Assembly (NCBI RefSeq): GCF_004339245.1
Contig: NZ_SMGG01000006.1
Coordinates: 186,001-250,000 of the forward strand
Source of the DNA: Seleniivibrio woodruffii
GTDB taxonomy: Bacteria > Chrysiogenota > Deferribacteres > Deferribacterales > Geovibrionaceae
DNA length: 64,000 nucleotides
Reading direction: 5' to 3'
Of the stretch, positions 15,457 through 37,192 are shown piece after piece; the stretch's first letter is position 1, and every line of letters begins with the position of its first letter. The position numbers and the translations under genes were made by a program. Below the pieces are notes generated by a model. It saw only the letters and a program-made list of their open reading frames with translations. It searched no databases and was not told where the DNA came from.

Positions 15457-15466
15457 ATTATTTGTT

Positions 15467-19654: not shown

Positions 19655-21868
19655 ATGATAAACAATCAGGGCGTCCAGCACCGCATCTTCATATATGTCA
19701 GTGTGGTTCTTATTACACTATGCGTCATTTTCGCATTCATCAATATTACTGTAAGATATTTCGAATACAGAAACGACATCACCCGCCAGAGCTATCTGGT
19801 TGAAAACAACCACAGGCTTCTGGCGTCACGTCTTTCGGGGGTTTTGAAATCAAACCTGACCCGTGCGGCGGCCGACCATGAGCTTCTGGAGGCCGTTGAA
19901 ACCGGAAATATGCCGCTGTTGTCAGGCAGAATGTCTGTCCATTCAAACGCCATGGACATAGAGTTTCCGGATGATGTCTTCGTTTACAGGGTGATATCCT
20001 CCGACGGCAAGACGCTGTTTTCCGGAGGCAAGCTCGACCGATGCCAGAGCAGATATTCAAAGGCCGTAACAAACGCTCTGAACAGCATCTCCGCCAGCAC
20101 CTCATACGAGCTTTGCGGCAGACAGATGATGCAGTTCTCCGCTATACCCATATACTCTGACGGAGGCATCATAGCCGCTGTGGAACTGGGAACCTCACTG
20201 TCTTTCTACGGAAGGGGCATGGAGCAGTCCACCGGCTACAGCATGGCTGTTCTTTTGGAAAAGGACAACCTGAAACCCGAAGGGATGCAGTCATACGGAA
20301 GATACTATCTTATGCCAGAGGGGAACATGTCCATGTTCCGCAGGATATTCGATTCTGCCAGGGGCAGCATAGACAAACTGCCGGAGACGATGCATGTGGG
20401 CGACGTTCACTACAGGGTTCTGGACGATATCCGCTTTTACAGCGGCACAGGACAGGAACTGGGCAGGTTTGTGTATGCAAAGGACGTGACCTCCTCCGTA
20501 TCATCCATCCTGACCTACACGCTCAACACAATCTTCATAACGCTCTTCTTCTGCGTGGCCTCGCTGGTTATCATCGGCATAGGTTTCAGCAGAACGGTCG
20601 GCACTCTGGAAAAATCCCACACCGACACCATAAACAGGCTGGCCGTCAACGAACGGAAGTATCGTGAATATATCGACAACTCACCCATGTCCATCTTTAC
20701 GGCCAACGATTCGAAGATGTTCATTGAGACCAACAAGCGTTTCTGCGAAGTTCTGGGTGCGGAAAAGAGAGACGTAACAGGTCACACCTTCTACGACTTC
20801 ATGACCGAAGACAACAGAGCGGAAATAAACAAATTCTATTCAATAGCCATGCACGAGGGGAGCAATTCCGGAATACTGCACATAGTCACCCGCAGGGGCA
20901 AGGAGATAGCCCTGATGGCGAAGGCTGTCAAAATTGACGAGTCCTCCCTGCTGTTCAACTGCCTTAACATAACCGACAACATAGCTATGGAAAAACGGCT
21001 CAGAGAGCTTAATCTGGAGCTTGAGAACGTCAACAGGAACCTGCAGATACGCATTGAGGATGAGGTTGAGAAGAACCGGAGACAGTCTCACGTTCTGGCA
21101 GAGCAGAAAAAATTCGCCGACATGGCCATGATGATGAGCGCAATCGCCCATCAGTGGCGTCAGCCTCTGAACGCTCTGGGGCTTATGATACAGACCATGC
21201 CCGACACCCTCGGCATTGACGAAAACTCAGAAGGCTACGTCAGATTTGAAGAGACCGCCATGGAACTGGTCGGAAACATGTCAAACACCATCGACAACTT
21301 CCGCCTTTTCTTCGAAACCGGAGCGAACAAGGAACCTTTCAACGTGATAGAGGAGCTTAAGAACACCTACTCCGTGATGGCTGTCAGACTGGCATCACAC
21401 AACATAAAGACCCGTTTCATGTGCCGCAGGGAGGAGGATATGCACTTCTCGCCCTGTCAGAACTGCGGGTTATGCCACGAGATAAATCTGTTCGGTTCCG
21501 CCGGAGAGTTCCGCCAGATGGTGGTGAACATCTTCAACAACAGCTTTGAGGCAATAAACGACAGGATGGGAAAAATTCCAGGCATGGAGGGGAGCATTAC
21601 GGTTAACATCGTCTGTTCCGACACAAGGGTGACCGTAAGTATTGAAGACAACGGAACAGGAATAGCCCCCGAGCTTATCGGCCGGATATTCGAGCCGTAT
21701 TTCAGTACAAAAAACGATGCGAACTCCTCCGGAATAGGCCTTTACATGGTAAAAGTGCTCACCGAGCAGAGCATGGGCGGAAAAGTGGCGGCATTTAACA
21801 ACCATCTGGGCGGACTTACCGTCGTGATGGATTTTACACTCTACAAAGGTGATTCTAAGCAGGCTTAA
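19655..21868 (+). CDS. membrane sensor histidine kinase with PAS domain and cysteine cluster
   Basis: 737 residues. TM1 at about 10-32, a periplasmic sensor of roughly 250 residues (Cache-like by layout), TM2 at 289-311, a PAS domain at 330-445, a coiled coil to 490, then the H-box [11 protein letters not shown] with His499. The N-box NIFNNSFEAIND (about 625-636) and DNGTGI, SSGIGLYM complete the ATPase domain. Just before the N-box sits Cys590, Cys601, Cys604 and Cys607 (SPCQNCGLC), in a place where such kinases usually have a plain strand and loop. No response regulator is adjacent. The 3' end overlaps the convergent kinase gene by 14 bases. The signal sensed is unknown; the cysteines suggest metal or redox control. 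Confidence 0.88.
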   Translation: MINNQGVQHRIFIYVSVVLITLCVIFAFINITVRYFEYRNDITRQSYLVENNHRLLASRLSGVLKSNLTRAAADHELLEAVETGNMPLLSGRMSVHSNAMDIEFPDDVFVYRVISSDGKTLFSGGKLDRCQSRYSKAVTNALNSISASTSYELCGRQMMQFSAIPIYSDGGIIAAVELGTSLSFYGRGMEQSTGYSMAVLLEKDNLKPEGMQSYGRYYLMPEGNMSMFRRIFDSARGSIDKLPETMHVGDVHYRVLDDIRFYSGTGQELGRFVYAKDVTSSVSSILTYTLNTIFITLFFCVASLVIIGIGFSRTVGTLEKSHTDTINRLAVNERKYREYIDNSPMSIFTANDSKMFIETNKRFCEVLGAEKRDVTGHTFYDFMTEDNRAEINKFYSIAMHEGSNSGILHIVTRRGKEIALMAKAVKIDESSLLFNCLNITDNIAMEKRLRELNLELENVNRNLQIRIEDEVEKNRRQSHVLAEQKKFADMAMMMSAIAHQWRQPLNALGLMIQTMPDTLGIDENSEGYVRFEETAMELVGNMSNTIDNFRLFFETGANKEPFNVIEELKNTYSVMAVRLASHNIKTRFMCRREEDMHFSPCQNCGLCHEINLFGSAGEFRQMVVNIFNNSFEAINDRMGKIPGMEGSITVNIVCSDTRVTVSIEDNGTGIAPELIGRIFEPYFSTKNDANSSGIGLYMVKVLTEQSMGGKVAAFNNHLGGLTVVMDFTLYKGDSKQA

Positions 21869-23831
21869 CAGGCAGACTTATAAAAAAGCATACCCCGTTC
21901 TCGGTATTCTCGAAGAAGATCCTGCCGTTCATATAGTTTTCCACAATATTCTTGGTAAGATACAGACCTATCCCCGTCCCCTTGCCTTCGCCCTTTGTGG
22001 TGAAATAGGGATGGAAGATGCGCTCGGCAACGTATGCAGGAATAGGCTTTCCGTTGTTGAATATGCCTATCTCGATCCTGTCCTCTTTCATGCCGATGCT
22101 GACGCTGATTATCTTCTCAAGGCATTCGTTGCTCTCAAACTCTTCCTGAACTGCGTCCACCGCATTCTGAAGTATGTTTATGAAGCCCTGCTTGAACTCG
22201 TCCCTGTATCCCTCCACTCTCGCTTCATTATAGCGGCAGCGAAGCTGGTCGACATATTCGCCGCAGTCCATAAAGTTGTCTCCGCAGACGCAGGAGGCTC
22301 TGAAGGTTATGCCCAGATAGGCCATTTTCGCTTCATATATTTTCAGGATATCCCTTACCTCAAGCATTACGTTGAATGTTATCAGCTTACTCTCAGGTTT
22401 GAAGAAATCTCCGAAGTTATCGATTGTGGACGAAAGCCCGCATATAATGTTCATGCAGGTAGTCTCGAATCCGTTTATGTATTCGCTGTCCAGAAGACCG
22501 TCCCTGTGGGTCTGGCTGACATCCTGAACATACAGCCCCAAAGCGTTCAGCGGCTGACGCCAGTGGTGGGCAATGGCGCTCACCATGTTTCCGAGATCCG
22601 CCAGTTTTTTCTGGTTGAATATCATCTGTTCATACTTTCTGTTCTTCTCCGTCTCCTTCTGAATGGTTTCGTGGAGGGTGGAGTTTATGTTCTGAAGCTC
22701 CAGAGTCTTTTTGTGCAGTTCGGTTATGTCCCGGCAGATGCCCATGACTCCCTTCAACTCGCCGTCGGCTCCGCAGAAGGGGAATTTAACTGTGAGCATC
22801 AGTCTTTTTCTGCCGTCCTTGAACTGAACCCACTCCTCGTTCTGCCGCTTCTGCATCATGGCAAGGGTGACTCTGTCGTTGGCGATATACTCATCGGCAA
22901 CGCTCTTTTCAAATATTTCGTGGTCGGTTTTGCCCATCAGCTCGCTTTGAGACATACCCGCAAGCTCTTCAAAGGCCTTGTTGCATCCCATGTACCGACC
23001 GTCGGTCCCCTTGAAGAACACCAGATCGTCAATGGCGTTGAAAAGGGAGTTTATAAGCCCCGACTGCCTGTTTATCTCATCCTGAATTAACTTCTGTTCG
23101 GTTATATCTCTGCCCAGAACAACGATGCCTTTGCGCTTTGTCTTCTCCTCATCGTAATAAAGAGGAACCTTGATAACATCAAAAATTCTCGGCGTACCGT
23201 CAGGTTTGGGGATAAGTTCCTCCTCTCTGCTCATGACACCGCTCTGCCATGTCCTCTCGTCGGAATCCGCACACCAGAGGAAAGATTCCCTGTATACCGG
23301 AAGGGTGCTCTCGGCCAGTTCCAGTTCATCCTTGCCGACAAAATCCACATCCTGAAGGGAGAATATCTCCAGATTGCTCCTGTTGGCCTCAAGCCATCTG
23401 CCCTTGCTGTCCTTAAAACAGATAAGGTCGGGTGTTGCGTTTATAAGTGTTTTAAGCTGTTCCTGCTTCTGTTTCAGAGTTTCATAGGCTGTCCGCATGG
23501 AAGTGTCGTCACGGACTATTATGGCAAGCTCTGTGCCCGAAGCCACAGCCTCCACATGGAACCCCCTGCCGAAAGACGGCACGAAGTGATATACCTTTGT
23601 GGTGAGTGCATCTTTTACAAGAATGGGAAAATCTGACGTGAAAAAAGGGCAGCTGAGGTCTCCCAGACGTTTGTTGAGCATCTGATCTTTAATGCAGCCT
23701 GTAATTTTGAGAAATGAGTCATTGACATCGGCGACAACAGCAGATTCAAAATCGGGCGAACCGTCTGTGTTGAAGAAGACACAGCCGAAATATGCCTTCT
23801 GAATTATTTGCCCAAGGAGACTTTTTAGCAT
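21855..23831 (-). CDS. soluble sensor histidine kinase with three PAS domains and cysteine cluster
   Basis: 658 residues without membrane segments. Three PAS regions at about 5-110, 125-245 and 255-370 (FKDSKGRWLEAN, FKGTDGRYMGCN, each followed by a GRDITE- or CRDITE-like end), a coiled coil, then [11 protein letters not shown] with His422. N-box NILQNAVDAVQE and GTGIGLYL follow. Ahead of the N-box are Cys514, Cys516, Cys523 and Cys532 (CVCGDNFMDC), aligned in position with the cluster of the two other kinases here. Being cytoplasmic, it should sense an internal cue such as redox state or a small molecule. Orphan, with no regulator nearby. Confidence 0.87.
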   Translation of the reverse strand: MLKSLLGQIIQKAYFGCVFFNTDGSPDFESAVVADVNDSFLKITGCIKDQMLNKRLGDLSCPFFTSDFPILVKDALTTKVYHFVPSFGRGFHVEAVASGTELAIIVRDDTSMRTAYETLKQKQEQLKTLINATPDLICFKDSKGRWLEANRSNLEIFSLQDVDFVGKDELELAESTLPVYRESFLWCADSDERTWQSGVMSREEELIPKPDGTPRIFDVIKVPLYYDEEKTKRKGIVVLGRDITEQKLIQDEINRQSGLINSLFNAIDDLVFFKGTDGRYMGCNKAFEELAGMSQSELMGKTDHEIFEKSVADEYIANDRVTLAMMQKRQNEEWVQFKDGRKRLMLTVKFPFCGADGELKGVMGICRDITELHKKTLELQNINSTLHETIQKETEKNRKYEQMIFNQKKLADLGNMVSAIAHHWRQPLNALGLYVQDVSQTHRDGLLDSEYINGFETTCMNIICGLSSTIDNFGDFFKPESKLITFNVMLEVRDILKIYEAKMAYLGITFRASCVCGDNFMDCGEYVDQLRCRYNEARVEGYRDEFKQGFINILQNAVDAVQEEFESNECLEKIISVSIGMKEDRIEIGIFNNGKPIPAYVAERIFHPYFTTKGEGKGTGIGLYLTKNIVENYMNGRIFFENTENGVCFFISLPVKPA

Positions 23832-35924: not shown

Positions 35925-36662
35925 ATGAAGACAATTTTGGTAACGGTATTAACATTTTTCACAATGTATGCTTTTGCCGATGTCACCCTGACAGAGAAAA
36001 CCGACGGCATAGTTTCCGTCAGCTATTTCTCCAAGAACAGGGTAGCTGTTCAGGAGAACGGCCAGATTCTTAACATAACCGATCTGAAAACCCAGACCAT
36101 CTATGGTTTTAATCCTGAAAATAAAACATATTTCAAGGCCACTTTCAAAGAACTGGCCGATATGAACAAGGCCGCAATGGCCGAGATGGATCCGGAAATG
36201 ATGGCTCAGTTCAACAGCGAAGCCGGACTGAAACAGCCCATCACCATCAAGAAGACAGGCAAGGGAGAATACGGCGGCTATCAGTGCGACAAATACGAAG
36301 TGGGATTTCAGGGCATGCCCGCAGCATCACAGATATGCGTTTCTCCGCAGGTTCGTCAGCTGATTCTGAACGAAATCGACACGAAAGCACTTAAAAGCTG
36401 GCTCAAAGTGATGGATTTCGAAGGGAACATTGACCCCATCCGCACCAAACTGGACGAAATATCCGAAAAGGTCGGCTACATCATCTATGAAAAAACAGTC
36501 CACAGCATCCCCGGCGTACCTATGGCCGCAGGAGCTGTCGATTCTTACACCACTGTGCTCCAGTCGGTGAACACCAAGCCCATCGACAACGGAAAATTCT
36601 CCGTGCCCGCAGGCTACAAAAAGGTGAGCATCGCCGAGGCTATGGGCGGCGAAGAACAGTAA
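35925..36662 (+). CDS. secreted protein, DUF4412-like
   Basis: 245 residues from the ATG at 35925. A signal peptide ends near MYAFA, residues 17-18. The rest alternates short beta strands (SYFSKNRVAVQENGQILNI) with a helical stretch (KELADMNKAAMAEMD) and has one Cys pair. The layout recalls periplasmic DUF4412 proteins, which fold like lipoprotein carriers, but the match is only by pattern. A terminator follows, so it is monocistronic. Confidence 0.7.
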   Translation: MKTILVTVLTFFTMYAFADVTLTEKTDGIVSVSYFSKNRVAVQENGQILNITDLKTQTIYGFNPENKTYFKATFKELADMNKAAMAEMDPEMMAQFNSEAGLKQPITIKKTGKGEYGGYQCDKYEVGFQGMPAASQICVSPQVRQLILNEIDTKALKSWLKVMDFEGNIDPIRTKLDEISEKVGYIIYEKTVHSIPGVPMAAGAVDSYTTVLQSVNTKPIDNGKFSVPAGYKKVSIAEAMGGEEQ

Positions 36663-36684
36663 GTCTTTTTTATGACGACATACA

Positions 36685-36720
36685 AAAGCCCCTTAGCTAA
36701 TAGCTAAAGGGCTTTTTTTA
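36685..36720 (+). terminator. terminator after the DUF4412-like gene
   Basis: AAAAGCCC...TTAGCT and AGCTAA...GGGCTTTTT, a 15-base imperfect stem followed by Ts. Confidence 0.85.
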
Positions 36721-36754
36721 TTTGTATATTTACTTGTTACGCTGACCTGACATG

Positions 36755-36950
36755 TGAGACTGCCACGCCGATTGCATCGGCTCGCAGTGACGCAATTCAC
36801 GTCACCCTATTCGGCAATTACTATAAGTTGACTCATACAGCCTTCAGCCAGTGTTCAGAATGACCGCTGACTACAAAGAAACAGTCACTCTGAGTGCAAC
36901 GAAGAGTCTCATTAAAAACTGAGACCCTTCGGCATAAGCCTCAGGGTGAC
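36755..36950. repeat. cluster of family A repeats in a gene-free region
   Basis: Within the 530-base gap 36663-37192. One full copy is at 36883-36950 (GTCACTCTGAG to CTCAGGGTGAC, with GAAGAGTCTCA and TGAGACCCTTC as inner arms). Before it are a fragment sharing GACTCATACAGCC with the 7.3-kb copy (36830) and ending TTCAGAATGAC (36854), and a GCCGATTGCATCGGCTCGC piece ending in CAGTGACG at 36755-36792. The right half of the gap is described as a separate structured element. Confidence 0.7.
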
Positions 36951-37008
36951 GATAATTCTACCAGTCTTCGCAAAAAGCAAAGCCACGAAGCAAGCTGCAC
37001 ATAGAAGA

Positions 37009-37192
37009 CTCCGCACCGTCTTTTGAATTGCTGTTTAGAATCAAGCAATTCAAGGCTCACAAACTTCAGGATGAAGTTCGTGAAGCATTTACATTCTGCA
37101 TTTAAGCAGAATGTAAATGCGAAACGTGAGCGCAGGAAGGCTTTGCCGACCGGAGCGTTAGCGTCATTTTTCCATGGATGGAAAAAATGACG
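37009..37192. other. multi-hairpin element, potentially a branched RNA or DNA structure
   Basis: Four nested or successive perfect stems: TTGAATTGCT/AGCAATTCAA (37023-37053); GCTCAC (37055) with GTGAGC (37126) enclosing AACTTC/GAAGTT (37062-37078) and a 15-base stem (37085-37099 with 37106-37120). Outside, CTCCG (37009) can pair with CGGAG (37151). A further stem CGTCATTTTTCCAT/ATGGAAAAAATGACG (37162-37192) ends at the stop codon of the glutamate synthase gene. No tRNA, T-loop or known riboswitch pattern is visible. Confidence 0.55.

Follow-up and report, generated by a model that had tools for sequence, protein, structure and literature searches.

A dispersed, probably mobile repeat of Seleniivibrio woodruffii and its relatives with two predicted CsrA-type RNA hairpins

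The window analysed, i.e. the whole stretch of 64,000 nucleotides from S. woodruffii (contig NZ_SMGG01000006.1, positions 186,001 to 250,000), contains a gene-free gap of 530 bases (36663-37192), the length that the first-pass annotation had stated. It is bordered by a DUF4412 gene on the + strand and by the 3' end of a - strand glutamate synthase gene. This gap ends in a whole copy of a dispersed repeat. The unit that is common to relatives extends from hairpin H1 (37062) through hairpin H2 (37192), in the order H1, variable hairpin, H3, H2. Since the stop codon of gltB, on the - strand, abuts H2, the repeat strand with the GGA loops (GGA strand) is antisense to gltB. The features of the locus are as follows:

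35940-36662, + strand: upstream DUF4412 gene, its stop 395 bases before the element
36684-36716, between the DUF4412 gene and the element: inverted repeat I1, followed by T's, a probable terminator of the + strand gene
37023-37053, no strand assigned: 10-bp hairpin TTGAATTGCT...AGCAATTCAA, similar to another dispersed repeat, with separate matches in L006, L007 and L008
37058-37192, + strand: whole repeat copy (GGA strand), 127.5 bits and E 8.7e-29 with covariance model R1, a score that is not independent as this copy is one of the 20 seed sequences of R1
37062-37078, + strand: hairpin H1, AACTTC-AGGAU-GAAGUU, loop 37068-37072 with a C-G closing pair, based on covariation and loop conservation in 35 H1 sequences
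37079-37126, + strand: stem CGU (37079-37081) / ACG (37124-37126) around the variable hairpin 37085-37120, its pairs covarying in 20 copies
37135-37151, + strand: hairpin H3, GG-AA-GGC-UUU-GCC-GA-CC, based on the conserved core and the consensus fold
37162-37192, + strand: hairpin H2, CGTCATTTTTCC-AUGGAU-GGAAAAAATGACG, loop 37174-37179, an ANGGAX hexaloop
37193-39934, - strand: glutamate synthase gene gltB (PF01645 with 4Fe-4S), stop codon 37193-37195

The two perfect stems reported earlier, of 10 bp (37023-37032/37044-37053) and 15 bp (37085-37099/37106-37120), are both 100% complementary, and the last hairpin described was located at 37162-37192. The regularity of this region had rightly been placed far above chance, as its folding differed from that of shuffled sequences with z = -8.6 (+ strand) and -9.6 (- strand), none of 200 shuffles being equally good; folding energy alone did not discriminate between the strands. 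The arrangement of these stems into a single branched element did not hold, the conserved unit being a row of hairpins (37062-37192) instead. Indeed, the six-base stem GCTCAC/GTGAGC is present (37055-37060/37126-37131) and encloses 37062-37078 and 37085-37120, but it lies outside the fold kept in relatives, and the possible outer pairing CTCCG/CGGAG, although located at 37009-37013/37151-37155, is absent from that fold. The three-way junction was therefore rejected as the functional fold, being not conserved and an alternative open only to the window copy. Similarly, the 10-bp stem (37023-37053) was rejected as a part of the element, as it falls outside the family unit and resembles another dispersed repeat, represented by TTGCTGTTTAGATGCAAG in L008 and by further matches in three other genomes of the genus (G001, G003 and G004). 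The rest of the gap (36740-36960) carries other dispersed repeats too, among them GACTGCCACG...CGCAGTGACG and a second type, GTCACTCTGAG...CGAAGAGTCTCA / TGAGACCCTTCGG...CCTCAGGGTGAC, which also occurs at window positions 15462, 15620, 28782 and 31030; sequences like these gap repeats are found beside L003 and L007.

Searched with this region, the own genome yielded several partial copies, and many more were retrieved from the genomes of its four congeners (G001-G004). Matches to R1 (E up to 0.1) occurred in all 12 genomes tested of the family, comprising Seleniivibrio and its relatives within the Deferribacterota. With up to 66 candidates scored per genome, their numbers were at least 9 in the own genome, at least 25, 33, 37, 43 and 65 in G001 to G005, and at least 15, 3, 47, 14, 33 and 8 in G006 to G011, respectively. 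Outside the family, weak relatives were represented by at least five matches in G023 and at least one in G047 (another family); none of the remaining 37 genomes was among the matches listed, and samples of G020 and G025, both lacking csrA, gave none. The units of G023 show a similar order, namely a GGA hairpin, GTGAGCG, AGAGCGTG and a GGA hairpin. The same genome, which belongs to another family, contains direct repeats of approximately 274 bp with two GGA-loop hairpins in each (L201, 560-1400). Copies from other genera, which are not part of the R1 seed, mostly kept GGA-type loops at H1 and H2. Some copies are decayed, such as L005, retaining only H1, and L090, without the variable hairpin.

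The alignment of 20 full copies yielded a consensus of 31 pairs, 26 of which showed compensatory changes, so that the covariation proposed as a check was found. Over the full element in these 20 copies, double-change cells amounted to 136, versus 40.8±6.3 in shuffles, and 92.7% of the cells were paired, versus 29-45% in slid controls. The consensus fold consists of H1, the CGU/ACG stem with the internal loop and variable hairpin that it closes, H3, and H2. Copies thus diverge in sequence yet share one RNA fold. The earlier fallback reading as decayed repeats only does not fit the family, since second copies in the own genome, homologues in relatives and covariation were all found. In the middle stems, conserved GA steps were seen by eye to face each other (e.g. 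GTGA...GAAC and GGGAGGC...GCCGACC), which is consistent with tandem G.A pairs; in that case, the + strand would be the functional one, as the other strand would place TC against TC.

The main feature of the repeat, the A(N)GGA loops of H1 and H2, had been overlooked in the first-pass annotation. According to structures of RsmE-RsmZ hairpins, a high-affinity site consists of A(N)GGAX placed directly on a C-G closed stem, N being optional (PMC4005645), and the motifs given are RUACARGGAUGU, by SELEX, for CsrA of E. coli and mAwGGAs for CsrA of Campylobacter (PMC6692469). Both loops match the A(N)GGAX rule, with A and GGA fixed, N optional and free, X free, and a C-G closing pair, and almost every full copy has such hairpins at both positions. 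The H1 pentaloop set comprised 35 distinct sequences on 19 different six-base-pair stems, with 98.1% of the cells paired, 57 double-change cells (versus 16±3.9), the A of the loop in 35/35 and each GGA base in 34/35, and H2 possessed GGA at the loop in 34 of 40 sequences, on 21 distinct inner stems; these counts do not represent independent events, because the sequences are interrelated and were found by similarity. Hexaloop forms of H1, e.g. ACGGAT and ATGGAT, occur as well. Between orthologous copies of two species, loop differences mostly concerned N and X (about ten groups, counted by eye), as in the series ATGGAA/ACGGAA/AGGGAT, ATGGAA/ATGGAC and AAGGAG/AAGGAA, with few changes of the core (ATGAT versus AGGAT; ACGAC versus AGGAC). 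Orthologous stems were compensated, as illustrated by the H2 inner stem of L002 and L056 (GCAC/GTGC and GTGC/GCAC, respectively), which carries the same AGGAC loop. The middle hairpins bear loops of the UUUA, UUUG or UUCA type, without A(N)GGAX.

One csrA gene was present per family genome. That of the own genome lies next to fliW and encodes a protein of 76 amino acids with L4, R6 and R44 (E. coli numbering). A model-free scan of 400-kb samples of six genomes tabulated the triplet at the GGA position in loops beginning with A, considering perfect hairpins with a stem of at least 6 bp and a loop of 5-6 nt. GGA was enriched about tenfold in the family genomes G005 (27, versus a mean of 2.8 for the other triplets) and G008 (31 versus 3.2), and in G023 of another family the numbers were 10 versus 1.2 with stems of at least 8 bp. 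No enrichment occurred in G020 (4 versus 3.8) and G025 (2 versus 5.8), considered as lacking csrA because no PF02599 match was found in these near-complete genomes, nor in the csrA-bearing G017 (1 versus 4.1). The last genome contradicts csrA as a sufficient predictor of GGA loops. Among the six genomes sampled, enrichment was thus confined to those with csrA, without being found in every one of these. This association is supporting but not decisive, because it concerns six genomes, both csrA-lacking ones come from other families and ancestry was not corrected for. In G003, two convergent repeat copies follow csrA directly (L038, 1176-1420). A special tie of the repeat to the csrA locus was rejected, since the own genome has none there and G004 at most an H2-like remnant.

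Mobility of the repeat is probable, because about a third of the Seleniivibrio copies are bordered by long direct repeats. Indeed, direct repeats in both flanks (score of 14 or more) were found for 17 of the 47 Seleniivibrio copies with usable flanks, versus 1 of 184 mismatched flank pairs. A few of these 17 cases represent tandem element copies, whereas most concern host DNA of 16-62 bp near the ends. Many duplications comprise the very end of the upstream gene, including the stop codon, with H1 directly after (L099, L116, L060, L059, L097 and L064). Duplications of host DNA were also found in other genera (L237, L120, L121 and L108), where the control was inflated by flank repeats. Target-site duplication of the MITE type is seen in part of the family, and the window copy has no flanking duplication. 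The orthologous gltB 3' site was without the element in all four congeners. A clean empty site was not obtained at this locus, as the congeners have other sequence there, so that no exact junction is readable. Elsewhere, three tandem copies in G004 (L098, 3425-3819) correspond to one copy at the matching site of G003 (L093, 6781-6911), which suggests local expansion by duplication.

Copies are mainly situated at gene 3' ends. Among the Seleniivibrio intergenic regions, each counted once and based on simple ORF calling, 14 had the repeat in sense with respect to both neighbours and 8 in antisense, whereas 13 were convergent, as in the case of the window copy, and 2 divergent. Strict sense orientation was therefore rejected as proof of an RNA role, the bias being only moderate. 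In three species (L085, L097 and L005), copies lie between genes read by eye as guaB and guaA, the last site, in the own genome, containing only an H1 remnant.

The explanation that we favour, and hold to be fairly probable, is that the repeat is a non-autonomous mobile element, that its sense strand encodes an RNA module with two predicted CsrA-type hairpins, and that its copies act as distributed CsrA decoys. H1 and H2 would represent two CsrA-type sites, spaced by two structural hairpins. Insertion would often occur just past a stop codon, duplicating tens of bp of the gene end, so that the mRNA of the upstream gene would carry the repeat in its 3' UTR. A sense-transcribed copy should bind one CsrA dimer, and many transcribed copies together would constitute a distributed decoy; the fate of the carrier mRNA may be altered too. 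What the sequences show is the repeat family with its conserved fold and loops, the long flanking duplications and the presence of csrA; CsrA binding, transcription and the decoy effect are inferred. Several points argue against this explanation. Besides the insufficiency of csrA and the comparison with just two csrA-lacking genomes of other families, these are the moderate orientation bias and the window copy being antisense to gltB, without flanking duplication and absent from the corresponding site of the congeners. Furthermore, selection per copy should be weak if a single decoy role is divided over dozens of copies. Selection could favour either a benefit to the host or propagation of the element.

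For the window copy itself, the chances are about even that it is an inert remnant, with a silent GGA strand and no effect, within a family of CsrA-site repeats. It may indeed be silent on that strand, because it runs antisense to gltB and lies 395 bases from the stop of the upstream gene, beyond the probable terminator I1 (an inverted repeat that the terminator scan did not list). In addition, promoter-like sites at the element were at chance level in a consensus scan (1 versus 0.6 expected), and its absence from the congeners fits a remnant as well. Against inertness, the stems and the two GGA loops are all intact, and the copy is among the better-scoring ones, be it as a member of the R1 seed.

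A REP- or MITE-like selfish DNA repeat, with hairpins and loops as signals for a mobilising enzyme and an incidental match to the CsrA site, is considered unlikely. It would account for the probable mobility, the long flanking duplications, the species-specific site, the good folding of both strands and the frequency of antisense and convergent copies. It does not explain why the loops obey the CsrA rule in detail, down to the C-G closure, nor why GGA enrichment is missing in the sampled csrA-lacking genomes, and no match to a Y1/RAYT transposase (PF01797) was found in the own genome (G000), G001 and G003-G006. A more far-reaching reading, which we regard as doubtful, is that of a new class of mobile elements, inserting in sense orientation after stop codons with long and variable target duplications, perhaps via an RNA intermediate; its paired CsrA-binding hairpins would be selected in the life cycle of the element, and its spread would rewire or buffer the CsrA network of the host. 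A set of 3' end hairpins that stabilises or processes mRNAs without CsrA agrees with the frequent position right after stop codons, but is improbable, as it leaves unexplained why fixed A-GGA loops sit on variable end stems and are missing from the middle hairpins. Finally, a free-standing CsrB-like sRNA gene at the window locus is very improbable: the single module with two A(N)GGA hairpins would suit it, but the copies are dispersed, no Rfam family matched (Csr/Rsm families included), and the consensus scan, with promoter-like sites at chance level and nothing resembling a terminator at the 3' end, gave no sign of a discrete gene carrying a promoter and a terminator of its own.

Compared with known systems, the repeat resembles the CsrB/CsrC and RsmX/Y/Z decoys in its several A(N)GGAX hairpins on C-G closed stems, its covarying stems and the csrA gene in the same genome. 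It differs from them in being mobile and dispersed in many copies at gene 3' ends, with two main sites per unit, and in its lack of Rfam matches and of a promoter and terminator of its own, as far as the consensus scan detects these. With REP/BIME sequences mobilised by RAYT it shares short palindromic units that are repeated between genes, near gene ends and partly in tandem; the conserved loops, RNA-type covariation and long duplications of host DNA set it apart, and a RAYT-driven REP was rejected, as no Y1 transposase gene was found in the own genome. MITEs, BOX, ERIC and NEMIS, compared by description only, are non-autonomous, modular, RNA-foldable and intergenic, as is the repeat; relative to these descriptions, the repeat has duplications of variable length, about 16-70 bp, and loops that fit the binding site of a known RNA-binding protein. 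No inverted repeat joins the two ends of the window copy. Earlier descriptions of dispersed CsrA-site repeats, or of repeats in Seleniivibrio or Denitrovibrio, were not found in the searchable open-access literature, which is part of the whole.

To our knowledge, CsrA decoys described so far are encoded by a small number of dedicated sRNA genes. In contrast to these, a mobile repeat placing CsrA-type sites behind many genes would, if confirmed, be a different route to setting free CsrA levels and would bring new mRNAs into the CsrA regulon by insertion. It would also exemplify a mobile element organised around an RNA-binding protein of its host. The repeat makes post-transcriptional control in the Deferribacterota accessible to testing, and the long duplications found at stop codons represent an insertion signature in their own right. 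As separate observations, contig C2 of G025 carries 17 Y1 transposase genes of equal score on one strand, and the window contains an 80-base inverted repeat (21104-21183 / 22534-22613), the arms of which are 79% complementary and 1350 bases apart.
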